The translations under genes were made by a program, and so were the position numbers. From the NCBI GenBank assembly GCA_016209015.1, contig JACQWY010000032.1, positions 1-64,000 of the forward strand: a stretch of 64,000 nt of DNA, written 5' to 3'. The stretch comes from Gammaproteobacteria bacterium (GTDB taxonomy: Bacteria; Pseudomonadota; Gammaproteobacteria; Ga0077536). Below are positions 878 to 24,035 of the stretch, piece after piece. Below the pieces are notes generated by a model. That model made no database searches. It was not told the DNA's origin and saw only the letters and a program-made list of their open reading frames with translations. Position 1 is the first letter of the stretch. Each line of letters starts with the position of its first letter.

Positions 878-3298
878 ATGAGATTCCGTCTGGCCGCCTG
901 GATCATGGCGCATCGCGCCTCCGTGGGCATCGCATTCATACTCGTCACGCTGGCCTTCATGGCCGGTTTCCCGAAGGTGCAGATCCGCACCATCTTCAAG
1001 GACCTGTTGCCGACCGACGATCCGTTCGTTCAGGTCTATTACGACCATCCGAATTTCGGCAATCCGCTGACCGTGTCGATCATGATCAAGCGGAAGAGCG
1101 GTGACATCTACAATTCCGAGACGCTGAACAAGGTCTGGAAGATGACGCGCGACATCGACCTCGCGCCCTACATCGACCACGACCAGATCGTCTCGATCGC
1201 CACCGAGAAGGTCCGTTACGCGGAAGCGACGCCCGACGGCGTCGACATGCATCCGTTGATGGACAGTCACGCGCCGGAAACGCCGGAGGAGATGAAGGAT
1301 TTCCGCCATCGCGTCGAAATGTCGCCGAACGCGCAGACGTTCTTCATCTCGGGCGACGAATCCGCAACGCTGCTCAATGCCGCGTTCCGCGACAACGTCG
1401 ACTACGGCGAAGCCTTCGCCTACGTGCAGAAGCTCGTCACGGAAGCGCGCGACGCGAATCACGACGTCTATCTCGCCGGCCAGCCGGCGCTGACGGGCTG
1501 GGTCTACAAGCTGCAGAAGCAGACCTACAAGATCTTCGGCGTGACGGTTGCGGCACTCATGATCGCGCTCGTCTTCTACATGCGGAACGTCGCCGGTGTG
1601 ACGACGCCTATCGTCTGCGCCGCAGTCGCGGGCGTCTGGGGCTTCGGCTTCATCGGCTGGCTCGGCCGGCCCATCGAGCCGCTGCTCATGATCGTGCCGC
1701 TGCTGCTCGTCGCACGCTCGTTCTCGCACTGCGTGCAGTACACCGAGCGCTACTACGAAATCCTGATGCACGTGAAGGACCGCTCGAAAGCCGCCGAAAT
1801 CACCATGGCCATCATGATGGCGCCCTCGATCCTCGGCATCATGACCGACGTGTTCGGCATCATCTTCATCGCCATCGCGCCCATCAAGACGATGGAGAAC
1901 CACGCGCTCTTCTGCGGTTTCTGGGCGCTCTGGATCATCCCGACGGGCGTGTTCCTGATCTCGATTCTCCTGTCCTATCTGCCGGTGCCGCGCAACATGG
2001 CGGAAATCGTCGGCGGCGAAGGCAAGGAATCGGGCATCCACCTCCTGCAGGACAAGGCGCTGCACGGCATCGCGCACATCACCTACGGCAAGACGGCGCG
2101 CGTCACGGCGGTCGTCGTCACGCTGTTCGGGATCTGGGCGATGTGGGAGACCTCGCTCATCAAGATCGGCAACCCGGTCGAGGGCTCGAACCTGCTCTGG
2201 TACGAATCCGAGTTCAACACCGCCGTGCGCGCCATCAATGCGCACTTCCCCGGCATGAACACGCTCGAGATCGTCATCCGCTCGGACAAGCGCGACCCGG
2301 AACGCCGCGTCGCCCGCACGCCGGAATACGTGCAGGTCGCGAGCGACATCCAGCGCATGGTCGAGGCCGACACGAAGATGCCGCCGCGCGCGACCTTGTC
2401 CTTCGCGGACTACATGCGCGAGGTCAATCGTCTGTTCTCCGGCGGCAATCCGAAGTGGGCCACCCTCGATCCGACGGACAAGGCGGTGAACACCGCGGGC
2501 TTCGCGGCGACGATGGGCACGAATCCCGTGAACTTCGGCGCGATCTCCGACTTCGAGTTCCAGAACTCGACGGTCTCGCTCTGGTTCAAGGACAACAAGC
2601 AGGAGACGGTCGACGCCGCGCTCGCGAGCGCGAAGAAGGCGGTGGACGCCGTCGGCGTCAAGCACCCCGACTTCACCGTCCGCCTCGGCAGCGGCGTGAT
2701 CGCGCTGCAGCAGGCGATGAACAGCGTCGTCGAGCGTTATCACTGGCTGATTCTCGGCCTCGTGAACCTCGCGGTGCTCGTCATCTCGGCCTATGCCTAC
2801 AGGTCCTTCATGGCCGCGTTCATCCTGCTCGTGCCCGTGAACCTGTCGAACTTCCTGCTGCTCGCCGCGATGCACGTGCTCGGCATCGGTCTCGACATCA
2901 ACGCGGTGATCGTGGCGGTCATGGGCGTGGGCGTCGGTATCGACTACGGCATTTATCTCCTCTCGCGTATCTGCGAGGAATATGCCGCCCACGATCACGA
3001 CGTGAAGCTCGCGATCACCGCCGCGCTCACCACGACCGGCAAGGCGATCATGTTCACCGCGACGATCATGCTGCTCGGCATCCTGCCCTGGTACTTCCTG
3101 TCGGATCTGAAGTTCATGGCCGACATGGGCATCCTGCTCGTCGCGATCATGCTCATCAACATGGTGCTCTCGCTCGTGGTGCTCCCGCTTCTCGTCTGGT
3201 TCGTGAACCCGAAGTTCATGGCCCGCGAGGATCTGATGGTCGGCGAGAGCGTCGACATCTCGCTGTACACGGCGGACTTCGTGACGGAAGCCGCGTGA
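878..3298 (+). CDS. MMPL/RND-family efflux transporter permease
   Basis: This 806-residue inner-membrane protein belongs to the RND superfamily in its two-times-six-helix MMPL form. One N-terminal helix is followed by a large periplasmic loop, a block of helices around residues 220-370, a second periplasmic domain at about 430-610, and a final helix block at 620-790. The helix motif 'GVGVGIDYGIYLLSR' near residue 690 is typical of the family's proton-relay helix. Such proteins export lipids or hydrophobic compounds; the substrate cannot be read from the sequence. The ATG at 878 has a purine-rich ribosome binding site and the N-terminus looks complete. The gene stands alone: repeats lie on both sides, a terminator follows directly, and no outer-membrane or adaptor partner is adjacent. 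Confidence 0.9.
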   Translation: MRFRLAAWIMAHRASVGIAFILVTLAFMAGFPKVQIRTIFKDLLPTDDPFVQVYYDHPNFGNPLTVSIMIKRKSGDIYNSETLNKVWKMTRDIDLAPYIDHDQIVSIATEKVRYAEATPDGVDMHPLMDSHAPETPEEMKDFRHRVEMSPNAQTFFISGDESATLLNAAFRDNVDYGEAFAYVQKLVTEARDANHDVYLAGQPALTGWVYKLQKQTYKIFGVTVAALMIALVFYMRNVAGVTTPIVCAAVAGVWGFGFIGWLGRPIEPLLMIVPLLLVARSFSHCVQYTERYYEILMHVKDRSKAAEITMAIMMAPSILGIMTDVFGIIFIAIAPIKTMENHALFCGFWALWIIPTGVFLISILLSYLPVPRNMAEIVGGEGKESGIHLLQDKALHGIAHITYGKTARVTAVVVTLFGIWAMWETSLIKIGNPVEGSNLLWYESEFNTAVRAINAHFPGMNTLEIVIRSDKRDPERRVARTPEYVQVASDIQRMVEADTKMPPRATLSFADYMREVNRLFSGGNPKWATLDPTDKAVNTAGFAATMGTNPVNFGAISDFEFQNSTVSLWFKDNKQETVDAALASAKKAVDAVGVKHPDFTVRLGSGVIALQQAMNSVVERYHWLILGLVNLAVLVISAYAYRSFMAAFILLVPVNLSNFLLLAAMHVLGIGLDINAVIVAVMGVGVGIDYGIYLLSRICEEYAAHDHDVKLAITAALTTTGKAIMFTATIMLLGILPWYFLSDLKFMADMGILLVAIMLINMVLSLVVLPLLVWFVNPKFMAREDLMVGESVDISLYTADFVTEAA

Positions 3299-3328
3299 TG
3301 CGCTGACCGGATGACCGGTCGGGAGGAA

Positions 3329-3354
3329 GGGGACGCTGGGCGTCCCCTTTATTT
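3329..3354 (+). terminator. Rho-independent terminator after the RND gene
   Basis: GGGGACG (3329-3335), a five-base loop, and CGTCCCC (3341-3347) are followed by TTTATTT. The hairpin lies 30 bp after the stop codon of the RND exporter gene and fits a classical intrinsic terminator. Confidence 0.85.
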
Positions 3355-3612
3355 GGTTCTTCTCCGAACTGCGGGGCAGGATTCACCGGCAGACAGAGGT
3401 GGCCTTCTGCAGACGTCGCCCTCGCGCAGGCGAGGGCCCAGTCGTTCAGCCCGGGCGCCGAGGTCGAACCGCGGATCGAGTCCGGATTACCAGCGCAGCG
3501 CCTTCGAAAGCCCGAGGTTCACTGCGCGTGCCGTGGGTCACCGACTGGGCCCTCGCCTGCGCGAGGGCTACGCATGGCGGGCAACTGCGCCCGCAGCTCG
3601 GAGAAGAACGTT
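3355..3612. repeat. Composite family 1 repeat, copies D and E head to head
   Basis: Hairpin cores at 3421-3438 and 3550-3567 are inverted relative to each other. The outer borders are 'ggttcttctccgaactgcgg' and, on the right, 'cggagaagaacg'. The interior matches the 137-431 composite in reverse orientation. The element fills the gap between the terminator at 3354 and the end of the methyltransferase gene at 3692; the remaining bases (3613-3691) show nothing recognisable. Confidence 0.75.
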
Positions 3613-3691
3613 CTTTCGATTCGCAGGTTGTCGTGAAAGAAGCGCTGCCACTAGAGAGGAAGCGCAGCAAAGCCGTCGTCCCACGCCGCCG

Positions 3692-4690
3692 CTACGCCTT
3701 CCTCCCCGAATAGATGCTGTATCCACCCGCCAGCGGCAGCCGCGCCAGGTCCCGCAAGCCTGCCGCCTCGAACCACCCGCGATATTCCGACTCCGTGTAC
3801 GCCTGCCCGTCCTCGTAGACGTTGAGGAACATGACATTCGCCGCGACCGCGTCGGCCGGCGCGAGCCGCGTGTCGTCGAGCATGCGGCCGACGGCGAACA
3901 GCACGCCGCCGGAATCGAGCGCTGCGGCGACGTTCCGCACCGTCCGCGCGGCAGCGTCGGCGCTCATCACCTGCAGCACCGAGCGCAGCGCCGCGACGTC
4001 GTAGCCGCCGGGCAGCGAACCGTTCACCAGGTCGACGTCGCAGACCTCGATGCGCGCTCCGAGCCCGGCTTCCGCGATGCAGTCCCGCGTGATCACCGCG
4101 ACGCTCGGCAACTCGGCCACCGTGGCGCGGAGCGAAGGGCAGAGCCGGCAGAGCGCGACGCTCAGGCCTCCCGAGCCGCCGCCGGCATCGAGCAGGCGGC
4201 GCTTCTGCGCGAGATCGAATTCCTTGTTGAGACGCCGTGCCGCGGCGCTCGCGCCCGCGTCCATGCCGCGGATGAAACCGGAGAGCTCGTCCTTCGTCAT
4301 GTTCGCGAAATCGTGCTTCGCCTGCGGCCGGCCGCTCCTGATCGAGGCGGCCGTGTGCATCGTCGAGGACCAGAGATCGGCGTAGGCCCCGGCGATCTCG
4401 CCGAGATAACGCGAACCGCCCTTGACGAGGAACTCCTGCGCCTCGGGCGTATTCGCGAAGCGCCCGCCATCGAGCGTGAGCATGCCTGCCGTGACGAGCG
4501 CGTACATCAAAGGCCCGAGCTTCACCGCGTTTACACCGAGCGCAGCGGCGACTTCCTCCACCGTCTTCGGCCCGTCGCCGAGCGGCGTGAACACCTCGAG
4601 CTGCATGCCGGCGAGCATCGCGAGCGCGGGATAGACGTTCGCGACGTGGCGGTTGATGGTGTCGGGCTGGAGGCGATCTGCGGTGGTCAT
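3692..4690 (-). CDS. SAM-dependent O-methyltransferase-like protein
   Basis: This 332-residue protein has the two-part layout of the acetylserotonin/hydroxyneurosporene O-methyltransferase family. An N-terminal winged-helix dimerisation domain covers about residues 1-110 ('TVEEVAAALGVNAVKLGPLM'). A Rossmann methyltransferase domain begins with the SAM motif 'LLDAGGGSGGLSVAL' near residue 165. The acidic residue of motif II is not obvious. The substrate is unknown. The ATG at 4690 is preceded by a GGGGA ribosome binding site. The gene lies downstream of hypB on the same strand but is separated from it by a repeat element, so membership of the hydrogenase operon is doubtful. Confidence 0.85.
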   Translation of the reverse strand: MTTADRLQPDTINRHVANVYPALAMLAGMQLEVFTPLGDGPKTVEEVAAALGVNAVKLGPLMYALVTAGMLTLDGGRFANTPEAQEFLVKGGSRYLGEIAGAYADLWSSTMHTAASIRSGRPQAKHDFANMTKDELSGFIRGMDAGASAAARRLNKEFDLAQKRRLLDAGGGSGGLSVALCRLCPSLRATVAELPSVAVITRDCIAEAGLGARIEVCDVDLVNGSLPGGYDVAALRSVLQVMSADAAARTVRNVAAALDSGGVLFAVGRMLDDTRLAPADAVAANVMFLNVYEDGQAYTESEYRGWFEAAGLRDLARLPLAGGYSIYSGRKA

Positions 4691-4717
4691 GGACGTTTCC
4701 CCTGGCTCGATATCTCG

Positions 4718-4850
4718 CAGGTCCGATTAGCCGAAGGCGTAATCGGACGTTTCGTCGGTGGCGTCTGCGCCCTGCAGGAGAATTCGGGAAACTCGGCGGC
4801 GCGGAAACTCCGAGCGTCCGATTACGCTGGCGCTAATCAACGGACCTACG
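4718..4850. repeat. Dispersed inverted repeat, family 3 (GTAGGTCC type), copy 1
   Basis: The left arm contains 'GTCCGATTAGCCGAAGGCGT' and the right arm the inverted 'CGTCCGATTACGC' and 'CGGACCTACG'. The same arms recur at 51576-51663 and, in diverged form, at 35443-35575. The right arm runs into the 3' end of hypB and contributes its last codons and its TAG stop. Confidence 0.75.
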
Positions 4851-5624
4851 AAGCCCTGCGCTCAACCAGGCGATCCACGCCTCCATTCCCTCCCCGCTCC
4901 GCGCGGAAACTTCGATGACGTCGAGCCCGGGCTTGATCCGCCGCGCATACTCGAGACAACGCACGACGTCGAAATCGACGTGCGGCAGGAGATCAATCTT
5001 CGTCAGCAGCATGAGATCCGCGCCCGCGAACGCATCCGGGTACTTGAGCGGCTTGTCCTCGCCTTCCGTCACGGAGAGCAGCACGACGCGACGCGTCTCG
5101 CCGAGCTTGAAGCCGGCCGGGCAGATGAGATTGCCGACGTTCTCGATGAGGAGGCACTGCACTGACGGCAGCACGTCGAGTGCGTGCAGCACCATGTGCG
5201 CATCGAGATGGCAGCCCTTGCCGGTGTTGAGCTGCACGGCGGGGACGCCCGTCGCCTCCACGCGCTTCGCGTCGAGATCCGTGTGCTGATCGCCTTCGAT
5301 GACGGCGCACGACCAGCGGCTCGAGATCCGCTTCAGCGTCTCGACGAGCAGCGTCGTCTTGCCGGCACCGGGGCTCGACAGCAGGTTCGCCGCGAACGTC
5401 CGGGCCGCCGCGAGCCGCGTCGCCACGTCAGCCGCATAGGCATCGTTGCGGTCGAGCAGCCGCGTCGAGAGCTCGACGACACGCGTCGGCCCGAAGCCGG
5501 GCAGACCCGTGGTTTCGGGCGCGAAGCTGAAGCGCCGCGCCTGTCCGCCGTGATCGTGCGGGTGGTGATGGTCGTGCGCGTGAGCGGATTTACCCGGTTC
5601 GCCGCAGCCGCAGATGTCGCACAT
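4833..5624 (-). CDS. hypB: Hydrogenase nickel-incorporation GTPase HypB
   Basis: HypB delivers nickel to the large subunit of [NiFe] hydrogenases in the cytoplasm, with HypA, using GTP hydrolysis. The 263-residue sequence starts with the high-affinity metal motif 'MCDICGCGEPG', then a His/Asp-rich stretch that may store nickel. The GTPase domain follows, with P-loop 'SSPGAGKTT', the family signature 'ENVGNLICPAG' and 'TKID'. It is co-oriented with hypA but separated from it by 88 bp filled with a hairpin element. Its last five residues and stop lie inside a dispersed repeat, so the original C-terminus may have been altered slightly. The family assignment is certain. Confidence 0.97.
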   Translation of the reverse strand: MCDICGCGEPGKSAHAHDHHHPHDHGGQARRFSFAPETTGLPGFGPTRVVELSTRLLDRNDAYAADVATRLAAARTFAANLLSSPGAGKTTLLVETLKRISSRWSCAVIEGDQHTDLDAKRVEATGVPAVQLNTGKGCHLDAHMVLHALDVLPSVQCLLIENVGNLICPAGFKLGETRRVVLLSVTEGEDKPLKYPDAFAGADLMLLTKIDLLPHVDFDVVRCLEYARRIKPGLDVIEVSARSGEGMEAWIAWLSAGLRRSVD

Positions 5625-13451: not shown

Positions 13452-13688
13452 ATGTGTCTCGCCGTCCCCGGTCGCATCCTCGACAAGCGCGCCGACGCGA
13501 TCGCGACCTGGCTCGCACGCGTCGATTTCGATGGCGTGATCAAGGAAGTCAGCCTCGCGTTCGTACCGGAAGCGGAAGTCGGTGATCATGTGCTCATCCA
13601 CGCCGGCTTCGCGATCGCGGTGCTGAGCGCGGAAGAGGCCGCGGCGACGCTCGCGGAGTTCGCGGCGCTCGCGGCGGGCGCGCGATGA
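13452..13688 (+). CDS. hypC: Hydrogenase assembly chaperone HypC
   Basis: This 78-residue protein begins with the invariant 'MCLAVPG', whose Cys2 is needed to carry the Fe(CN)2CO unit with HypD to the large-subunit precursor. It starts 3 bp after hypF and its stop overlaps the hypD start (ATGA). Confidence 0.97.
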   Translation: MCLAVPGRILDKRADAIATWLARVDFDGVIKEVSLAFVPEAEVGDHVLIHAGFAIAVLSAEEAAATLAEFAALAAGAR

Positions 13689-14779
13689 GCAACGCACCCT
13701 ATCGCGATCCCGGGATCGTCCGCGCACTCGCGCAGGCGATCGCGGCGCGCATGACGCGCCCCTGGTCGGTGATGGAGATCTGCGGCGGTCAGACGCACGC
13801 GATACTGAAGTACGGCCTCGACCAGCTCCTGCCGAAAGAGCTCACGCTGATTCACGGTCCCGGCTGTCCGGTGTGCGTGACGCCTGCCGAGGCGATCGAT
13901 TTCGCGGTCGCGCTCGCGGCGCGGCCCGACGTCGTCCTCTGCACCTACGCCGACATGCTGCGCGTGCCGGGCACTTCGCAGGCGCTGCTCGATGCGCGTG
14001 CCGCGGGCGGCGACGTGCGCATGGTCTATTCGCCGCTCGAGGCGGTCACGATCGCGCGCGAGCATCCAGCACGCGAGATCGTGCTGTTCGCGATCGGCTT
14101 CGAGACGACCGCGCCCGGCAACGCGCAGGCGATCCTGAGCGCGGCGTCCGCGGGCCTCGCGAACTTCGCGGCGATCGTCGCGCAGGTCACGGTGCCGGCG
14201 GCGCTCGACGCGTTGCTCGACGATCCGCGCCAGCGCATCGATGGCCTGCTCGCCGCCGGCCACGTCTGCACGGTCACGGGTTACGACGAATACCACGCGC
14301 TCGCCGCCCGCCACGCGACGCCGATCGTCGTCACGGGTTTCGAGCCCGTCGATCTCCTGCGCGGCCTGCAGCGCTGCGTCGAGCTGCTCGAAGCGGGCCG
14401 CGCCGAAGTCGCGAACTGCTACGAGCGCTACGTGAGCGAGCACGGCAACGCCGCGGCACGTGCGCTGCTCTCGCGCGTCTTCGCACCCGCCGACATGGGG
14501 TGGCGCGGACTCGGCACGATCCCCGCGAGCGGCTATCGGATCCGCGAGGAGTTCGCGGCCTTCGATGCCTGGCGCAAGTTCGTCCCGGGCAGCAGCCTCC
14601 CGCGCAGCGACGCCGGCGAGTGCCTCGCGGGTGAAGTGCTGCGCGGCCTGAAGAAGCCCAACGAGTGTCCGGCCTTCGGCACGCGCTGCACGCCGGCGCA
14701 ACCGCTCGGCGCGCCGATGGTCTCGGGCGAAGGCGCGTGCGCGGCTTATTTCCGCTATCGCCCGCCGGCCGCCGCATGA
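13685..14779 (+). CDS. hypD: Hydrogenase iron-ligand assembly protein HypD
   Basis: HypD is the scaffold on which iron receives CN and CO. The 364 residues contain the conserved 'EICGGQTHA', 'HGPGCPVCVTP' and 'GFETTAPG' motifs. The C-terminal region ('CLAGEVLRGLKKPNECPAFG') ligates its [4Fe-4S] cluster. Overlapping start and stop codons with hypC and hypE indicate translational coupling. Confidence 0.97.
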   Translation: MSNAPYRDPGIVRALAQAIAARMTRPWSVMEICGGQTHAILKYGLDQLLPKELTLIHGPGCPVCVTPAEAIDFAVALAARPDVVLCTYADMLRVPGTSQALLDARAAGGDVRMVYSPLEAVTIAREHPAREIVLFAIGFETTAPGNAQAILSAASAGLANFAAIVAQVTVPAALDALLDDPRQRIDGLLAAGHVCTVTGYDEYHALAARHATPIVVTGFEPVDLLRGLQRCVELLEAGRAEVANCYERYVSEHGNAAARALLSRVFAPADMGWRGLGTIPASGYRIREEFAAFDAWRKFVPGSSLPRSDAGECLAGEVLRGLKKPNECPAFGTRCTPAQPLGAPMVSGEGACAAYFRYRPPAAA

Positions 14780-15807
14780 GCTGTCCGCTGCCGTCCGACG
14801 GCCGCGATCGCATCACGCTCGCGCATGGCAGCGGCGGGCGCCTCACGCGCCGTCTCGTCGAGGAGATCTTCGCGCCCGCGTTCGACAATGCGCTGCTCGC
14901 GCCGCTCTGCGACGCCGCGGTATGGACGGAGCACGCCGGCCGCCTCGCGTTCACGACGGACGCCTACGTCGTCAGCCCGCTCGTCTTTCCGGGCGGCGAC
15001 ATCGGTCATCTCGCGGTCTGCGGCACGGTGAACGATCTCGCGATGATGGGCGCGCGGCCGAAGCATCTGTCCGCGGCGTTCGTGCTCGAGGAAGGATTGC
15101 CGCTCGCCGTCCTGAAGGACCTCGTGCGCTCGATGGCGGCCTGCGCGCGCGAGGCCGGTGTCGCCATCGTCACCGGCGACACGAAAGTCGTCGAGCGCGG
15201 CAAGGGCGACGGGCTCTACGTGACGACCGCGGGCGTCGGCGTCTGCGCCACCGCGACGCCGCTCGGGCCCTCCATGATCGCGGACGGCGACGTCGTGATC
15301 GTCAACGGCGATCTCGGCCGTCACGGCATGGCGATCATGGCGCACCGCGCGGGCCTCGAGTTCGACGAACCGCTGCTGAGCGATGTCGCGTGCCTGCACG
15401 AGCCCGTGCTCGCGCTCATCGAGGCAGGCATCCCCCTGCACTGTCTGCGGGATCTCACGCGCGGCGGTCTCGCGACGGCCATCGTCGAGCTGGCGCAGGC
15501 GAGCGCCCGGGGCGTCGTCGTCGACGGCGGCGCGATCGTCGTCTCGCGCCCCGTTGCCGCGGCCTGCGACCTCCTCGGACTCGACCCGCTGTACGTCGCG
15601 AACGAGGGACGCTTCGTGGCCTGCGTGCCGGCTTCCGCCGCGGACGCGGCGCTCGCCGTGCTGCACGCACATCCGCTCGCGCGCGAGGCGCGCGTGGTCG
15701 GCCGGGTGGGCGGCGTCACGCCGGGCTGGGCGGTGCTCGAGACGCCTTACGGTACGCGGCAGAAGCTCGATTTGCTGAGCGGGGATCAGTTGCCGAGGAT
15801 TTGTTGA
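14776..15807 (+). CDS. hypE: Carbamoyl dehydratase HypE
   Basis: HypE dehydrates the thiocarbamate on its C-terminal Cys to thiocyanate using ATP. This 343-residue protein has the PurM-like fold motifs 'LAHGSGGR' and 'TGDTKVVERGKGDG', and ends in the required 'PRIC' with a terminal cysteine. The start overlaps the hypD stop (ATGA); the earlier track start is an upstream extension through hypD. This completes the full HypABCDEF set in the window. Confidence 0.97.
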   Translation: MSCPLPSDGRDRITLAHGSGGRLTRRLVEEIFAPAFDNALLAPLCDAAVWTEHAGRLAFTTDAYVVSPLVFPGGDIGHLAVCGTVNDLAMMGARPKHLSAAFVLEEGLPLAVLKDLVRSMAACAREAGVAIVTGDTKVVERGKGDGLYVTTAGVGVCATATPLGPSMIADGDVVIVNGDLGRHGMAIMAHRAGLEFDEPLLSDVACLHEPVLALIEAGIPLHCLRDLTRGGLATAIVELAQASARGVVVDGGAIVVSRPVAAACDLLGLDPLYVANEGRFVACVPASAADAALAVLHAHPLAREARVVGRVGGVTPGWAVLETPYGTRQKLDLLSGDQLPRIC

Positions 15808-16243: not shown

Positions 16244-18811
16244 CTAGCCCGCCTGCACGCGCTCCGCGATGTGCGCGAGCGCGGGTTCCACCTGGTCGAT
16301 GAGGATGAGGCACAGGTCGCCCGGCCGCAGCGCCGCGAGCGCCGTGTCGATCGCCACGAACTCGCCGTGGATTTCCTGAACCTTCTCCGTGCGCAGCGCG
16401 CCGACGAGGCCGTCGCGTAACAGTGCCAGCACTTCGCCGTCTTCGCGGCCGCGCTGGCACTGGTCCTGATACAGCAGCACTTCCTCGAAGGCCTGGCCGA
16501 GGATGCGCGTCTGCTCGCGGATGTCCTCGTCGCGGCGATCGCCGGCGCCGCTGATGACGACGAAACGGCGCTGCGCCGGCATGTTCTCGACGGCCTTCAC
16601 GAGTGCGAGGATCGCGTCCGGGTTGTGGCCGTAGTCGGCGACGACGGTCGCGCCGCGATACTCGAAGAGATTGAAGCGGCCCGGCGCCGTGTGCTGATCG
16701 GCGGCGAACGTGCTGAGCCCCGCGAGCACGGCGTTCCAGTCGAGGCCGAGCGCCCAGGCCGCGGCGATCGAGGCCATCGCGTTCTCGACCTGGAAGCCGA
16801 TCGTGCCGTTGCGCGTGATCGGAATGCGGGTGAGCGGGATGCGCTGCTCCTGGCCGCCCTCGGCCGCGACGATGTCCGCGCCGTCGACGTAGACGACACG
16901 CTTGCCTTGTGCCGCGTGCATCGCCATCACCGGATGATGGCGATCCGCGGCGAAAAACGTCACCGCGCCCGGGCAGGATTCCGCCATCGCGGCGACGATG
17001 GGATCGGCCGCGTTCAGCACCGCCGTGCCGTCGGGCGCTACGTTCATGACGATGACGCGCTTCAGCACTGCGAGGTCTTCCACCGTCGTGATGAAGTTGA
17101 GCCCGAGGTGATCGCCCTTGCCGATGTTCGTCACGACCGCGACCTTGCAGCGATCGAAGGCGAGCCCCTCGCGGAGCAGGCCGCCGCGTGCGGTCTCGAA
17201 CACCGCGGCGTCGACGTCGGGATGCAGCAGCACGTTGCGCGCGCTCTTCGGGCCCGAGCAGTCGCCGGTGTCGATGCGCCGTGAGCCGATGTAGACGCCG
17301 TCCGTGTTCGTCATGCCGACGCGCAGTCCGCTGCAGGCGAGGATGCGCGCGATGAGGCGCACCGTCGTCGTCTTGCCGTTCGTACCGGTGACCGCGACGA
17401 CCGGGATGCGGCCGTCGTTGCCGTCGCCGTAGAGCGCGGAGATGATCGCCTCGCCCACCGCGCGGCCCTTGCCGAACGAGGGGCTGAGATGCATCCGCAG
17501 GCCCGGCGCGGCATTCACTTCCACGATGCCGCCGCCCTGCTCTTCGAGCGGCTTCAACATCGTCTCGCAGACGATGTCCACGCCCGCGATGTCGAGGCCG
17601 ATCATCTGCGCGGCGTCGACGGCGCGCGCGGCGAGCTCGGGATGGACGTCGTCGGTGACGTCGGTCGCGGTGCCGCCGGTCGAGAGATTCGAGTTGTTGC
17701 GAAGCACGACGCGCGCGCCCTTCTGCGGCACGGAATCCACTTCGAAACCCTGCACCGCGAGCCGCGCGCGGGCGATGTCGTCGAGACGGATGCGCGTCAG
17801 CGAGGTCGCGTGGCCGTCGCTCCGGCGCGGATCGCTGTTCACCTCGGCGACGAGCTCGGCGATCGTGCGCTCGCCGTCGCCGATGACGTGCGGCGGCTCG
17901 CGGCGCGCCGCGGCGATGAGGTTCTTACCGACGACGAGCAGCCGGAAATCGTGGCCCGGGATGAACTTCTCGACAATCGACTCCTCGCTGATCTCCTGCG
18001 AAGCGGCGAACGCGACCTCGAGGTGCTCGCGCGTCTCGAGATTGACCGTCACGCCCTTGCCGTGATGGCCGTCGCGCGGCTTGACGACGACCGGCGTGCC
18101 GATTTCGCAGACCGCGGCCCAGGCTTCCTCGATCGTCTTCACGGGCCGGCCGAGCGGCACCGGGATGCCGGCGGCGTCGAGCAGCTTCTTCGTCAGATCC
18201 TTGTCCTGCGCAATCGATTCGGCGACCGCGCTCGTGCCGTCGAGCTCAGCAGCCTGGATGCGTCGCTGCCTGCTGCCCCAGCCGAACTGCACGAGGCTGC
18301 CCTCGGTGAGCCGGCGGAACGGAATGCCGCGCGCCGTCGCAGCCTGCACGATCGAACCCGTGCTCGGGCCGAGGCGCAATTCCTCGTCGAGCTCGCGCAG
18401 GCGCGTCACCGCGCCCTGCAAATCGAACGCGGTGTCCTGGCGCGCCGCCGCGCAGAGCGCCTCGGCGATCTCGAAGGCGAGACGGCCGACGGCCTCCTCG
18501 GTGTATTCGACGACGACCTGGAAGACGCCGGGCTCGATCGTCGGCGTCGTGCGGCTGAACGCGACGGGACAACCCGCCTGTGCCTGCAGCACGAGCGCGC
18601 CGAGCTCGAGCGCGCGCGGCAGGTTCAGGCGTTCGTGATTCGCGACGTGGTGCAGACCGCCGACCCCCGGGAAGAGCGCCCGCAGACGGTGCTCGAAAGC
18701 GGCATCCGGCAGGCCCTGCTCGTCGGGTGCGAGCGTGACGAGCGCCTCGATCGCGGTGTGGCGGCCCCAGAGGTTCGGCCCGCGCAGGGCCCGTAGGCGA
18801 GAGATTTCCAT
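16244..18811 (-). CDS. cphA: Cyanophycin synthetase CphA
   Basis: CphA polymerises aspartate and arginine into cyanophycin, a nitrogen and carbon reserve stored as cytoplasmic granules. The 855 residues have the family's N-terminal domain (about 1-160) and an ATP-grasp domain with glycine-rich loop 'VVVKPRDGHHGKGV' (about 241-254) and metal ligands 'EVNAAPG' (431-437). A Mur-ligase-like domain follows with intact P-loop 'GTNGKTTT' (476-483) and C-terminal lobe 'VISGAGDRRDEDI'. Both ATP sites look functional. The ATG at 18811, 5 bp after the upstream paralogue, is preferred to the 1000-residue track ORF, whose extra N-terminus is out-of-frame paralogue sequence. No cyanophycinase gene is in the window. 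Confidence 0.95.
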   Translation of the reverse strand: MEISRLRALRGPNLWGRHTAIEALVTLAPDEQGLPDAAFEHRLRALFPGVGGLHHVANHERLNLPRALELGALVLQAQAGCPVAFSRTTPTIEPGVFQVVVEYTEEAVGRLAFEIAEALCAAARQDTAFDLQGAVTRLRELDEELRLGPSTGSIVQAATARGIPFRRLTEGSLVQFGWGSRQRRIQAAELDGTSAVAESIAQDKDLTKKLLDAAGIPVPLGRPVKTIEEAWAAVCEIGTPVVVKPRDGHHGKGVTVNLETREHLEVAFAASQEISEESIVEKFIPGHDFRLLVVGKNLIAAARREPPHVIGDGERTIAELVAEVNSDPRRSDGHATSLTRIRLDDIARARLAVQGFEVDSVPQKGARVVLRNNSNLSTGGTATDVTDDVHPELAARAVDAAQMIGLDIAGVDIVCETMLKPLEEQGGGIVEVNAAPGLRMHLSPSFGKGRAVGEAIISALYGDGNDGRIPVVAVTGTNGKTTTVRLIARILACSGLRVGMTNTDGVYIGSRRIDTGDCSGPKSARNVLLHPDVDAAVFETARGGLLREGLAFDRCKVAVVTNIGKGDHLGLNFITTVEDLAVLKRVIVMNVAPDGTAVLNAADPIVAAMAESCPGAVTFFAADRHHPVMAMHAAQGKRVVYVDGADIVAAEGGQEQRIPLTRIPITRNGTIGFQVENAMASIAAAWALGLDWNAVLAGLSTFAADQHTAPGRFNLFEYRGATVVADYGHNPDAILALVKAVENMPAQRRFVVISGAGDRRDEDIREQTRILGQAFEEVLLYQDQCQRGREDGEVLALLRDGLVGALRTEKVQEIHGEFVAIDTALAALRPGDLCLILIDQVEPALAHIAERVQAG

Positions 18812-18816
18812 CGCGG

Positions 18817-21000
18817 TCAGCGCGCTCCAACGATAGCGAAGTTCGCGTCGTGCGGATCGAAAGTCTCGATGCCGGCACGGATGATTTCGAGCGGTATGTC
18901 CAGGGCCCACGCCGTCGCGATGGCGGCGAGCACCTGGGTGACGCCGGGCTCGCCGTTCGCGGCGCTGCCGAGCGGCACGGCGGCGAGCTGCGTGAGCACG
19001 CTCTCCTGCGCGCCGGTCGCGAGCACGAGGTCGCCACCGCGGGTAAACACCACGCGGCCGCCGGCGTCGCGATGCGCGGCGAGCGGCGGCGCAGCGGGCA
19101 CCGTCGAGAAGAAGACGACCGCGCCGTCGCAGAGCTTCGCCATCGAGGCGACGAGCGGATCCTCGGCGTTCAACACGGCGGCGCCCTCGGGCAGCACGAC
19201 GTCGATCTGCGTGCGCAGGACGTTGAACATCTGATCGGGATTGCAAATGTCGAACTCGTCAATCTTGTCGCGCTCGTCGAGCCCCATCACGACGCCGACG
19301 CGGCAGCGATCGTAGGCGAGGCCCTCGGCGACGAGCGCGCGGGCCCCGTTCTCGAGCACGGCGGCCTCGACGCTGCGGTTGATGAGGAGACGATGCGCGC
19401 CGCGCCAGTGCGCCTGGTCGCCGCGCGCGATCACGCGGCGGTCGAGGAACAGGCCGTCGCGGCAGGCGAGTCCGACGCGCTTGCCGGTGAGCTGCAGCAG
19501 GCGCGCGACGAGGCGGCCCACCATGCCGAGACCGTCGCTGCCGGTGATGCCGACGAGCGGAATGCGGCCGGTCTCACCGTGCGGGAAGAGATGGCCGACG
19601 ATCGCCGGCCCGACCGGACGCGGCCCACCGCGCGCAGGCTTCAGGTGCAACTGCAGGCCCGGCCCCGAATTGACCGCGACGACCGCGGCCTCCTGCAGCG
19701 CGAGCGGCTTCGCGATGTCCTCCGCGACGAAATCGATGCCCGCGATGTCGAGGCCGACGACGCGCGCGGCGAGCGCGACGGCGGTCGCGATGCTCGGGTG
19801 CACGAGGTCGGTGACGTCCTCGGCGAGATTGCCGTCGCGGCGCACGAGCAGCACTGCGCCCGCGGCCGGTACGCTCTCCGGCGTGGCGCCCTGACGGGCG
19901 AGCTCGAAACACACGACCTCGTCGAGCTTCATCGGGTTCAGCGGTGCATCGGCCATGACGCCGCGGCGCGGGTCGGAATTGATCTGCTTCTCGACGAGCG
20001 CGGCGACCGTCGAGACGCCGTCCCCGGTGACCATCGCGGGCTCGCCGCGTGCCGCCGCGACCATGCGCCCGCCGATGACGAGCACGCGGTGCTCCTGACC
20101 GGAGACGAAGTGCTCGACGATGATGTTGCGCGTCTCCTCGCGGGCCGCGACATAGGCCGCTTCGACTTCCTCGCGCGTCGTGAGCTTCGTGAAGACCGCG
20201 CGGCCGAGGCGCGCGCTGTTCGGCTTCACGACGACCGGCAGACCGACGTCCTCCGCCGCCTCCCACGCATCCTCCGCGCTCTTCACGAGCCTGCCCTCGG
20301 GCACCGGCACACCGCAGGACTTCATGAGCCCGCGCGCGAGATCCTTGTCCTGCGAGATGCCTTGCGCGATCGCGCTCGTCAGATCCGTTTCCGCCGTCCA
20401 GATGCGGTGCTGGGCCGCGCCGTGTCCGAGCTGCACGAGATTGCCCTCGGAGAGCCGGATGGCGGGGATGCGCCGCAGCTCGGCGGCATTGACGATCGAA
20501 GAGGTGCTCGGGCCGAGGCAGTGCACGTCGCAGAGCTGCTTCAGCCCCAGCACCGCGGCACCCACGTCGAAGGCGCGGTCCTCGATCGCGGACATCACGA
20601 GATCACGTGCGAAATTCAACGCGGCCGCGGTGACGGTTTCGTTCCAGGCCCGCACGACGATTTTGTAGACGCCCCGCTCGGAAGTCTCGCGCGCGCGGCC
20701 GAAACCGCCGGGCAGACCGGCGAGGTTCTGCAGCTCGAGCGTCACGTGTTCGAGGATGTGGCCGGGCCAGGTGCCTTCGCGCAGCCGGCGCAGAAAACCG
20801 CCGGGCTCGCCGTAGCTGCAGCGGTGATCCGCGAGCGTCGGCAGCCAGGCCGAGAGGCGCTCGTAGAAACCGGGGATCGTGTTCGAGGGAAAATCCTCGA
20901 GTGCGCCGATGTCCACCCGGGCCTCGAGCACGGGATGATAGGTCCACATATTGGGACCGCGCAGCGGCGTGACACTGCGGATCAGGATGTCTTTTTTCAT
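18817..21000 (-). CDS. CphA-like paralogue with apparently degenerate ATP sites
   Basis: This 727-residue protein follows CphA through the N-terminal, ATP-grasp and most of the Mur-ligase-like domains, but ends before the usual C-terminal lobe. The Mur-ligase P-loop is 'GITGSDGLGM' (about 484-493), without the GKT/S core. The ATP-grasp loop reads 'VVVKPNSARLGRAV' where CphA has DGHHGKGV, and the metal motif EVNAAPG is 'AVNSGPG' (442-448), losing the glutamate. Comparable shortened paralogues (cphA' in proteobacteria, CphA2 in cyanobacteria) are known. CphA2 uses one site to join Asp-Arg dipeptides, but here both sites look impaired. It is the first gene of the pair with cphA (5 bp gap), suggesting a partner or regulatory role. 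Confidence 0.85.
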   Translation of the reverse strand: MKKDILIRSVTPLRGPNMWTYHPVLEARVDIGALEDFPSNTIPGFYERLSAWLPTLADHRCSYGEPGGFLRRLREGTWPGHILEHVTLELQNLAGLPGGFGRARETSERGVYKIVVRAWNETVTAAALNFARDLVMSAIEDRAFDVGAAVLGLKQLCDVHCLGPSTSSIVNAAELRRIPAIRLSEGNLVQLGHGAAQHRIWTAETDLTSAIAQGISQDKDLARGLMKSCGVPVPEGRLVKSAEDAWEAAEDVGLPVVVKPNSARLGRAVFTKLTTREEVEAAYVAAREETRNIIVEHFVSGQEHRVLVIGGRMVAAARGEPAMVTGDGVSTVAALVEKQINSDPRRGVMADAPLNPMKLDEVVCFELARQGATPESVPAAGAVLLVRRDGNLAEDVTDLVHPSIATAVALAARVVGLDIAGIDFVAEDIAKPLALQEAAVVAVNSGPGLQLHLKPARGGPRPVGPAIVGHLFPHGETGRIPLVGITGSDGLGMVGRLVARLLQLTGKRVGLACRDGLFLDRRVIARGDQAHWRGAHRLLINRSVEAAVLENGARALVAEGLAYDRCRVGVVMGLDERDKIDEFDICNPDQMFNVLRTQIDVVLPEGAAVLNAEDPLVASMAKLCDGAVVFFSTVPAAPPLAAHRDAGGRVVFTRGGDLVLATGAQESVLTQLAAVPLGSAANGEPGVTQVLAAIATAWALDIPLEIIRAGIETFDPHDANFAIVGAR

Positions 21001-21261
21001 GTTCGTTTTACGGCTTTCTGCCGCTGCGACAGGTCGACGGCGTCCCCGGATGCCTGTTCCGACGCCTGGCGCGATGTTTTGGTCGCGGGAGAGTAAGTAA
21101 ATTTCGCGGGCTGCGAAAGCCCCGCGAACCGCGCCGGCAACGCTGCGTGATCATGGAGGCATCGTAGCGGCGCGCGCTGAACGCGCGCTGAATTCCCGAC
21201 GGCCTCGCGCACGATCGGCACGAGACCGACAGCAGCCTTGAACAAACGCGGGACAGCCTGC
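21001..21261. other. Divergent intergenic region between the cyanophycin genes
   Basis: These 261 bp must hold the promoters for the synthetase pair (leftward) and the ABC-DUF1854 pair (rightward). There is a local inverted repeat 'cgcgggctgcgaaagccccgcg' around 21106-21127 (stem CGCGGGCT.. AGCCCCGCG, one bulge), and a short direct repeat of 'gcgcgctgaa' near 21174-21192. No convincing activator site or sigma box was recognised. Confidence 0.45.
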
Positions 21262-23562
21262 ATGCTGCCGTTGATGAGCATGGAATCCGAGCCGTCCGTC
21301 AACGGCAGTCCCGTCCCGGCGCGCTGGCGCACTCGTCTCGCCGCGGTCCTCGACGCGGACGAGCGCGTGCTCGGCTGGTTCGAGCCCGATCTGGATCAAC
21401 GGCTCCACTTCGCCGCCGGGCTCGTGCTGCTCACGGATCGCCGCCTCGTCGCCGCGACGGCGGACAGCGAGGCGTGGGGGATCTGGCCGCACCGCGACGG
21501 GCTCTCCTTCGATCATCAGGACCACGGCGGCGTCGGTACGGTCGATCTGCACGACGGCACGCGGCGGCTCGCGCGCTGGCGCTACACGCTCGGCCACGAC
21601 CCGGCTGCGCAGCGCCTCATCGGCCAGTACGGCGCGATCGTCGCGGCCGCGCGCGCCGGCCGCCGCTACGAACGCGAGCTCGAAGCCGCGTGTCCGAAAT
21701 GCGGCGGGCCGCTCGTGCCGGGGCAGGAGGACTGCCCGGTCTGCGCGAGCGAATCGACGATCCCACCCTCGACGTGGACGCTGTTCCGGCTGTGGCGTTT
21801 CGCGCGGCCCTACAAGCTCCGGCTGCTGGCCGGCTTCCTGCTCACACTCGGCGGCACCGCGGCGACGCTCGTGCCGCCCTATCTCACGATGCCGCTCATG
21901 GATCGCGTGTTGATCCCGTATCAGAACGGCGTGCCGATCGACTACGGCCTCGTCACGAAATACCTCGCGGGTCTCTTCGCCTCGGCGGTGATCGCCGCGG
22001 TGCTCGGCTGGGCGCGCACGTTCATCCTCGCGCTCGTCAGCGAGCGTCTCGGTGCCGATCTGCGCACCGCGACGTTCGATCACTTGCTCCGCCTCTCGCT
22101 CGAATACTTCGGCGGCAAACGCACGGGCGATCTGATCTCGCGCATCGGCTCCGAGAGCGATCGCATCTGCGTCTTCCTCTCGCTGCACGCGCTCGATTTC
22201 GCGACCGACGTGCTGATGATCCTCATGACCGCCGCCATCCTGGTCTCGATCAGCCCGTGGCTCGCGCTCGTCACGCTGCTGCCGCTGCCGTTCATCGCCT
22301 GGCTCATCCACATCGTGCGTGACAAGCTCAGGCACGGCTTCGAGAAGGCGACGCGCATCTGGTCGGAAGTGACGAACGTGCTCGCGGACACGATCCCCGG
22401 CATCCGCGTCGTGAAGGCCTTCGCCCAGGAGAGCCGCGAGGGCCAGCGCTTCCGCGCCGCGAACGATCACAATCTCGCGGTCAACGATCGCGTGAACAAG
22501 GTGTGGTCGCTGTTCTCGCCGACGGTGACGCTGCTGACCGAGACGGGGCTCCTCGTCGTGTGGGCATTCGGCATCTGGCAGGTCGCCCACGATCGCATCA
22601 CGGTCGGCGTGCTGACGGCCTTCCTCGCCTACATCAGCCGCTTCTATACGCGCCTCGATTCCATGAGCCGCATCGTGTCCGTCACGCAGAAGGCGGCGAC
22701 GGGCGCGAAGCGCATCTTCGACATCCTCGATCACGTCTCGAGCGTGCCCGAGCCCGCGCACCCCGTGCATCTCGACGCAGTGCACGGCCGCATCGAGCTC
22801 TCGAACGTCGGCTTCCGCTACGGCAGCCGCGCCGTCATCCGCGGCGTCGACATGACGATCGCGCCGGGCGAGATGGTCGGTCTCGTGGGTCACAGCGGCT
22901 CGGGCAAGAGCACGCTCGTGAACCTCATCTGCCGCTTCTACGACGTCGCGGACGGCGCGATCAGGCTCGACGGCGTCGACATCCGCACGCTGCCCGTCGC
23001 GGAATTCCGCCGCCACATCGGCGTGGTGCTGCAGGAGCCGTTCCTGTTCTTCGGCACGATTGCCGAGAACGTCGCCTACGGCCGGCCCGAGGCGACGCGC
23101 GCGGAGATCGTCGCCGCCGCGCGCGCCGCGCACGCCCACGAGTTCATCCTGCGCCTGCCGCACGGTTACGACTCGCTCGTCGGCGAGCGCGGCCAGGCCT
23201 TGTCGGGCGGCGAACGGCAGCGCATCTCGATCGCGCGTGCGCTGCTCATCGATCCGAAGATCCTGATCCTCGACGAGGCGACGTCGTCCGTCGACACGGA
23301 GACGGAGAAGGAGATCCAGAAAGCGCTCGACAATCTCGTCCAGGGCCGCACGACGATCGCGATCGCGCATCGTCTCAGCACGCTGCGCCGAGCCGATCGC
23401 CTCGTCGTCCTCGATCGCGGCCAGGTCGTCGAGACCGGCAATCACGACGAGCTGATGGCGCGCGAAGGCGATTACTACCGGCTCTACCAGGCCCAGGTCC
23501 GCGCGGCGGAAGCCGAAGAGGTCATGCACTGGGCGCCGCCGCCCGTCGAGGCGCGCGCATGA
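21262..23562 (+). CDS. ABC exporter associated with cyanophycin genes
   Basis: This roughly 766-residue protein is a half-type ABC exporter with an extra N-terminal part. Residues about 1-140 form an uncharacterised globular domain, followed by a zinc ribbon ('CPKCGGPLVPGQEDCPVC'). Six membrane helices lie at about 165-450. The nucleotide-binding domain has Walker A 'GHSGSGKST', signature 'LSGGERQR' and Walker B 'ILILDEATS'. It overlaps the DUF1854 gene (ATGA) and diverges from the cyanophycin synthetases. A homologous pair is named in databases as cyanophycin-metabolism-associated, from my memory. Its substrate is unknown. The start is uncertain: the track uses TTG 21238; ATGs exist at 21262, 21274 and 21280, and 21262 has a weak GGGA eight bases upstream. 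Confidence 0.88.
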   Translation: MLPLMSMESEPSVNGSPVPARWRTRLAAVLDADERVLGWFEPDLDQRLHFAAGLVLLTDRRLVAATADSEAWGIWPHRDGLSFDHQDHGGVGTVDLHDGTRRLARWRYTLGHDPAAQRLIGQYGAIVAAARAGRRYERELEAACPKCGGPLVPGQEDCPVCASESTIPPSTWTLFRLWRFARPYKLRLLAGFLLTLGGTAATLVPPYLTMPLMDRVLIPYQNGVPIDYGLVTKYLAGLFASAVIAAVLGWARTFILALVSERLGADLRTATFDHLLRLSLEYFGGKRTGDLISRIGSESDRICVFLSLHALDFATDVLMILMTAAILVSISPWLALVTLLPLPFIAWLIHIVRDKLRHGFEKATRIWSEVTNVLADTIPGIRVVKAFAQESREGQRFRAANDHNLAVNDRVNKVWSLFSPTVTLLTETGLLVVWAFGIWQVAHDRITVGVLTAFLAYISRFYTRLDSMSRIVSVTQKAATGAKRIFDILDHVSSVPEPAHPVHLDAVHGRIELSNVGFRYGSRAVIRGVDMTIAPGEMVGLVGHSGSGKSTLVNLICRFYDVADGAIRLDGVDIRTLPVAEFRRHIGVVLQEPFLFFGTIAENVAYGRPEATRAEIVAAARAAHAHEFILRLPHGYDSLVGERGQALSGGERQRISIARALLIDPKILILDEATSSVDTETEKEIQKALDNLVQGRTTIAIAHRLSTLRRADRLVVLDRGQVVETGNHDELMAREGDYYRLYQAQVRAAEAEEVMHWAPPPVEARA

Positions 23563-24035
23563 GCGGCATGGCGATCGACCTCGAGCTCACGCGCAACGAG
23601 CTCGGCCAGCTCGTCTACACCGCCCGCGACGGCATGCGCCACGAAGGCGTCGTGCCGGTGCGCGCGTTCCCGATCACGGCGCCGCAGTCCGGCCTCGCGA
23701 TCGTCAGCACCGAGGGCGAGGAGCTGGTCTGGATCGAGGATCCCGAAGCCTTGCCTCAGCGCCTGCGAGTGCTGCTCGAGGAGGAGCTCGCGACGCGCGA
23801 CTTCACGCCGCGCATCACGTGCATCAAAGAAGTTTCGAGCTTCGCGACACCGAGTACGTGGCTGGTGGAGACGGATCGCGGCGGGACCACACTCGTCCTG
23901 AAGGGCGAAGAAGACATCCGCCGGCTCTCCGGGGCGGGACTCCTCATTGCCGACAAGCACGGCATCCACTACCTCATCCGCGACATGAAGGCGCTCGACA
24001 AGAAGAGCCGGAGATTCCTCGACCGGTTTCTGTGA
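23559..24035 (+). CDS. DUF1854 family protein of the cyanophycin locus
   Basis: This 158-residue soluble protein matches the DUF1854 pattern: 'RDGMRHEGVVPVRAFPITAP' near residue 25, 'SIVSTEGEELVWI'-like strands around residue 55, and the C-terminal 'DKHGIHYLIRDMKALDKKS'. It has no signal peptide, membrane helix or recognisable catalytic motif. Its ATG overlaps the ABC exporter stop codon (ATGA), so the two are translationally coupled. The pairing suggests an accessory of the transporter or of granule metabolism; the molecular role is not known to me. Confidence 0.85.
   Translation: MSGMAIDLELTRNELGQLVYTARDGMRHEGVVPVRAFPITAPQSGLAIVSTEGEELVWIEDPEALPQRLRVLLEEELATRDFTPRITCIKEVSSFATPSTWLVETDRGGTTLVLKGEEDIRRLSGAGLLIADKHGIHYLIRDMKALDKKSRRFLDRFL

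Follow-up and report, generated by a model that had tools for sequence, protein, structure and literature searches.

The window analysed here is a stretch of 64,000 nucleotides from a gammaproteobacterial contig, and its minus strand carries two adjacent genes related to the synthetase (CphA) of cyanophycin, a polymer that stores nitrogen. The first of these, which we call CphA', is the subject of this analysis. Residues are numbered as in SuCphA1/TeCphA1 unless stated otherwise, and residue roles were taken from PMC9427784 and PMC9262961. The locus has the following features.

13685-15807, plus strand: hypD and hypE (hydrogenase maturation), downstream of cphA and on the opposite strand to it.
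16244..18811, minus strand: CphA, the partner synthetase, 855 aa; GTNGKTTT, DGHHGKGV and EVN intact, N-domain cutting site destroyed.
18817..21000, minus strand: CphA', a degenerate CphA1 paralogue of 727 aa with N, G and Mcore domains and without Mlid.
19192..19221, minus strand: Mcore segment VLRTQIDVVL of CphA', matching SuCphA1 602-610; its R and D (R603, D607) are invariant in 55/55 CphA'.
19522..19551, minus strand: degenerate Mur-ligase P-loop GITGSDGLGM, with K499 and T500 lost.
19669..19677, minus strand: AVN in place of EVN, with loss of the Mg ligand E450; R458, close by, is also lost.
20194..20220, minus strand: degenerate P-loop of the ATP-grasp site, NSARLGRAV where CphA has DGHHGKGV, with H267 lost; low pLDDT at residues 263-266.
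20518..21000, minus strand: N domain of CphA' (approximately residues 1-161), a predicted endo-cyanophycinase; Pfam Cyanophycin_syn at 122 bits, against 31.5 in the partner.
20746..20820, minus strand: intact Cx19HxxEH motif; C61, H81, E84 and H85 of CphA' correspond to SuCphA1 C59, H79, E82 and H83.
21238..23562, plus strand: cyanophycin metabolism-associated ABC transporter (NF052233, 1398 bits), divergent from cphA'.
23559..24035, plus strand: cyanophycin metabolism-associated DUF1854 protein (NF052234, 224 bits).

The reading frame of CphA' runs from an ATG at 21000 to a TGA at 18819-18817 with a coding-like GC3 of 0.86-0.91, and 5 nt separate its stop from the start of the downstream CphA (18811). 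The preliminary description had taken the gene to be intact and first in its operon, and both points hold. CphA' passes the family model NF010623 (982 bits, cut-off 877) and stays below the equivalog TIGR02068 (702 bits, cut-off 850); the CphA1 structures 7wac and 7lg5 match it at E 1e-138, while Pfam finds Mur_ligase_M and Mur_ligase_C in the partner CphA and neither in CphA'. An AlphaFold2 monomer model built from 27 relatives has a mean pLDDT of 81.9, with the N domain (about 80-95) and Mcore mostly confident; pLDDT falls below 50 in loops such as the G-domain P-loop (263-266) and the loop of the Asp/Mg site (446-462). With this model, the best Foldseek matches were the SuCphA1 structures 7lgj, 7lg5 and 7txv, with CphA2 far behind. 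The global TM was moderate (0.62) and the rmsd large, as expected from domain motions; the predicted structure confirms that the CphA1 fold is retained, and no finer detail is read from it. CphA' is thus a CphA1 homologue by family sequence and fold. The names of the two divergent neighbours, a transporter gene next to genes for an intracellular storage polymer and a DUF1854 protein, come from NCBIfam.

The synthetase sites of CphA' are heavily altered. In the G site we found H267 replaced by L, R323 by G, E450 by A and R458 by Q, together with a shortened Gomega loop, so none of the four residues taken as diagnostic of Asp addition in CphA1 is kept (for the roles of E450 and R458, see PMC9427784). 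In the M site K499 has become L, T500 G, T522 R and H586 K, and the chain ends at about SuCphA1 residue 721, so that CphA' lacks the set taken as diagnostic of Arg addition (K499, T500, D585/H586 and Mlid). Alignment against SuCphA1/TeCphA1 therefore bears out what the preliminary description had read from the letters: the changed Mur-ligase P-loop, the changed ATP-grasp loop, the change of EVN to AVN and the stop before the last lobe. Its wider claim that both ATP sites are lost stands for the M site, whose P-loop is wrecked, but is too strong for the G site, which is eroded and not erased, since K220, K261, R309, D431 and N452 are still present. Catalytic residues supplied at shifted positions were also considered and rejected: neither pairwise nor MAFFT nor phmmer alignment to SuCphA1/TeCphA1 revealed an alternative GxxGK[TS] or EVN. 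The changes go far beyond chance, because R309, R323 and the M-site K/D/H residues are all retained in the partner CphA and in 12/12 of the solo CphA1s examined, and because relatives of CphA' are under purifying selection. In the sampled tandem pairs, E215 is lost in both copies.

The N domain gives a very different picture. CphA1 has there a third site, passed over in the preliminary description, which was discovered in 2022 and is a rare case of a polymerase making its own primers: a zinc metallopeptidase-like endo-cyanophycinase with a Cx19HxxEH motif, which slowly cuts cyanophycin into primers (PMC9262961). In SuCphA1 the mutation E82Q abolishes cutting and primer independence, and G-/M- mutants of SuCphA1, or its lone N domain, can in trans make the primer-dependent TmCphA1 primer-independent (PMC9262961). 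Besides the four motif residues, CphA' keeps the shell residues H59, F69, R72 and E89 in its own numbering (SuCphA1 H57, F67, R70 and E87), so that all eight N-site residues that mark the CphA1 endo-cyanophycinase are present. At the same positions the partner CphA has L for H57, H for C59, R for H79, L for H83 and V for E87, F67 and R70 are deleted, and E82 is still E. Several polymer contacts of CphA' differ from those of SuCphA1 (Y14 to M, E90 to N, T101 to A, S603 to R and E607 to D), which counts against a cutting role. Two of these contacts, S603 and E607, touch the polymer in the N-domain site of SuCphA1 (PMC9262961); in the 55 CphA', the strip of Mcore lining this site ranks with the best-conserved parts of the M domain.

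How general is this arrangement? A scan of GTDB genomes with a pattern including C59, and thus biased for one ligand, gave 80 named loci, in all of which CphA comes after CphA'; most are from Burkholderiaceae and other Betaproteobacteria. Because that pattern held C59, a second, motif-free survey searched 150 genomes from a different order (probably Burkholderiales) for matches to the partner CphA; CphA was present in 56 of them, nearly always as tandem pairs. This set was supplemented with pairs that tblastn located in relatives belonging to the GTDB family of the window. With the role of each copy assigned from the G-domain residues R323 and R458 only, the N site was complete where these two were lost and incomplete where they were kept in 80/80 named pairs and in 55/55 pairs from the motif-free searches. 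Solo CphA1s combine the N, G and M sites in 12/12 cases checked (eight that came out of the surveys, plus four named ones carried on plasmids of Deinococcus, Mesorhizobium, Ruegeria and Sphingobium).

The decay of the ATP sites varies among CphA'. The forms of Cupriavidus, Pandoraea and Ralstonia are full length, with M-site residues and Mlid, and most others are truncated to about 700-750 aa. In most CphA' the losses are confined to the Asp-binding R323 and R458 and the Gomega loop, with K220, K261, H267, R309, D431 and E450 still in place. The window protein is among the most eroded: the joint loss of H267 and E450 is seen there and, less cleanly, in one other CphA' (L233). L233 comes from the window's own family (G008 contig 45, ORF 3036-5057 on the minus strand, 656 aa); its G domain is very badly eroded (branch length 5.4), all eight N-site residues are kept, and it is predicted to be a natural near-minimal cutter.

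In a tree of G domains all CphA' form one clade (support 99), which is nested in a clade of CphA and CphA' (98). The tree is thus most simply explained by one old duplication, and reciprocal loss after it accounts for the split of the sites. It follows that the 135 pairs, as descendants of one duplication, are not independent events; the cphA pair of Tetrasphaera (PMC10687191) could be an independent case. The window CphA' groups with that of Cupriavidus necator in the same clade and stands first in a tandem with CphA, as in the family typified by Ralstonia eutropha. Betaproteobacteria and relatives of the window genome share a conserved CphA' family that forms tandems with CphA, and the window protein is an extreme case within it. 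Its identity to Cupriavidus CphA' is about 64%, against only about 47-50% to the aligned relatives of its own GTDB family, which suggests a transfer or a distinct sub-lineage. Over the 55 pairs, mean pairwise identity in the N domain is higher in CphA' than in CphA (0.62 vs 0.57), and it is lower in the G domain (0.62 vs 0.71) and in Mcore (0.44 vs 0.68). All domains of CphA' are under purifying selection among close relatives (omega about 0.02-0.23), with dN of about 0 in one near-identical pair of N domains.

The residue pattern is conserved, the two genes keep their tandem order and selection is purifying; from this we infer that CphA' probably acts in trans as a primer-cutter for its partner CphA, following the split of a three-site CphA1. 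One old duplication of such an enzyme would have divided the work between two proteins. CphA, having lost its own ability to cut, would use its G site (for Asp) and M site (for Arg) to lengthen cyanophycin. CphA', without aspartate recognition and, in the window, without both ATP sites, would have kept the zinc endo-cyanophycinase of the N domain and would cut long chains into short (beta-Asp-Arg)n primers for CphA to extend, probably inside a mixed oligomer of the two. Its degenerate G and Mcore domains would persist as a scaffold and oligomer interface and would help to form the wall that binds polymer at the cutting site. On this model CphA' would bind zinc, cleave cyanophycin, supply primers and form a complex with CphA. 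The preliminary description had proposed a regulatory or structural partner or a primer-binding subunit; the loss of both synthetase functions is supported, but this proposal is only half right, and a primer-cutting subunit fits best because CphA' retains a complete N-domain catalytic site. L233, whose N site is whole next to an eroded G domain, supports the same role. In Accumulibacter, neighbouring cphA copies are evenly expressed (PMC10687191).

The same activity could serve degradation. The genome of the window has no match to the cyanophycinase model TIGR02069 (the CphA' gene included, so that by this model CphA' falls outside the CphB/S51 cyanophycinases) nor to IaaA or IadA. Among 69 genomes compared, an above-cut-off TIGR02069 cyanophycinase occurs in 8/8 genomes with a solo CphA1 and in 4/59 with a pair. 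This agrees with the scarcity of cyanophycinase in Betaproteobacteria (3%), a puzzle already published (PMC10206079; PMC5178258), and CphA' possibly also stands in for the missing enzyme. That it would be chiefly catabolic, freeing oligomers from granules with primer supply a secondary task, seems to us rather unlikely. Replacement of CphB by CphA' is a plausible but weaker claim, given that the N-domain activity characterised so far works slowly and yields (beta-Asp-Arg)4 instead of dipeptides, CphB being a fast exo-enzyme (PMC9262961); moreover, co-transcription with CphA points to synthesis, and the paired genomes may have cyanophycinases of an unrecognised kind. A tentative possibility is that both tasks are combined, Betaproteobacteria and their relatives having a two-subunit machine made of a dedicated zinc endo-cyanophycinase, at once primer generator and missing cyanophycinase, and a synthetase that starts inefficiently alone. 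In one of the four paired genomes with a cyanophycinase (G263), that gene lies next to a CphA cluster distinct from the pair. At this locus (L230, contig 1, 5339100-5346000), two additional CphA genes, oppositely oriented and each with a degenerate N site, adjoin a strong cyanophycinase (L244), and the genome also has an ordinary CphA'/CphA pair.

CphA' could instead be non-catalytic, with a structural zinc and a capacity to bind polymer, and shape or regulate a mixed oligomer with CphA. The purifying selection on its inert G and Mcore domains and the fold retained in the model are in line with such a role. We nevertheless regard it as decidedly unlikely, because a purely structural site has no need of the general base E82, which is invariant alongside the metal ligands, and because the combination of E82 with its metal ligands is exactly what the partner CphA has lost. 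Some CphA' may still use ATP, since most canonical ones keep the ATP residues of the G site and lose the Asp-binding parts only; with the whole M site and Mlid in Cupriavidus, Pandoraea and Ralstonia, this could mean that the ATP-grasp reaction of CphA' uses a different acceptor or amino acid and that the pair makes a modified polymer. Such a reaction is very improbable for the family, where relatives such as L233 are even more eroded than the window protein, and it cannot hold for the window protein itself because H267, E450, K499, T500 and Mlid are lost. A decaying pseudogene, suggested by the long branch of the window CphA' in the G-domain tree (0.56) and its lost motifs, is extremely unlikely and was rejected given the intact frame, the coding-like GC3, the conserved tandem order, the purifying selection on relatives and the invariant N site. 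We also rejected an assignment to CphA2, which lacks the N motif and has an ATP site, the opposite of CphA', where the motif is present and the G site eroded; 7ta5 and 8fxh were weaker matches than CphA1 in sequence and fold searches.

Among characterised systems, CphA' shares with SuCphA1 (7lgj/7txv) the N, G and Mcore domains and the full Cx19HxxEH motif with its shell, but has lost the aspartate and Mg residues of the G site, the M P-loop and Mlid, so that only the cutting part is predicted to work. The partner CphA resembles TmCphA1 of Tatumella, with working G and M motifs and no N-domain site, except that TmCphA1 is described as a single primer-dependent enzyme and the partner adjoins a CphA'. 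Cyanobacterial CphA2 is likewise a CphA paralogue minus a synthetase site; the N-domain motif is missing from it (PMC9262961), and it uses one ATP site to polymerise beta-Asp-Arg, the reverse of CphA'. CphB (TIGR02069) hydrolyses cyanophycin, as CphA' would by inference, but it is a fast exo-cyanophycinase releasing beta-Asp-Arg dipeptides, whereas the site of CphA' resembles a Cys-His-His metallopeptidase-like endo-site. The CphA' of R. eutropha / C. necator H16 (H16_A0775) belongs to the same tandem family. Adames reportedly wrote in 2013 that this protein "misses a large part of the J-loop". The homologue in C. necator UYPR2.512 (L071) has the N site, R323G, R458L and a gapped Gomega loop. 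Unlike the window protein, which is truncated and eroded at both ATP sites, the C. necator CphA' has its full length and its M-site residues.

Tandem cphA pairs (in R. eutropha H16, Sideroxydans and Accumulibacter), the third site of CphA1 and the missing cyanophycinase were already known. In openly searchable papers we found no statement of a three-site split between pair members or of a function for CphA', although priority is not certain. If the split is real, evolution would have carried out the separation experiment of PMC9262961, placing builder and cutter on separate proteins whose ratio would be open to regulation. This would provide a concrete function for the unexplained second cphA of Betaproteobacteria and a testable answer to the fate of their cyanophycinase. 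A passage in PMC8560796, citing Adames 2013, states that the R. eutropha H16 genes gave no detectable cyanophycin, whether in E. coli or in R. eutropha itself. This counts against the cutter-and-builder reading, although here too the split would offer a testable answer, if both proteins were not functional together. In practice, co-expression of CphA' may raise the yield of cyanophycin. As a further observation on the pairs, the catalytic H267 is replaced by Q in the synthetase partner of 50/55 pairs and retained by CphA' in 46/55, and the window CphA is among the five partners that retain it.
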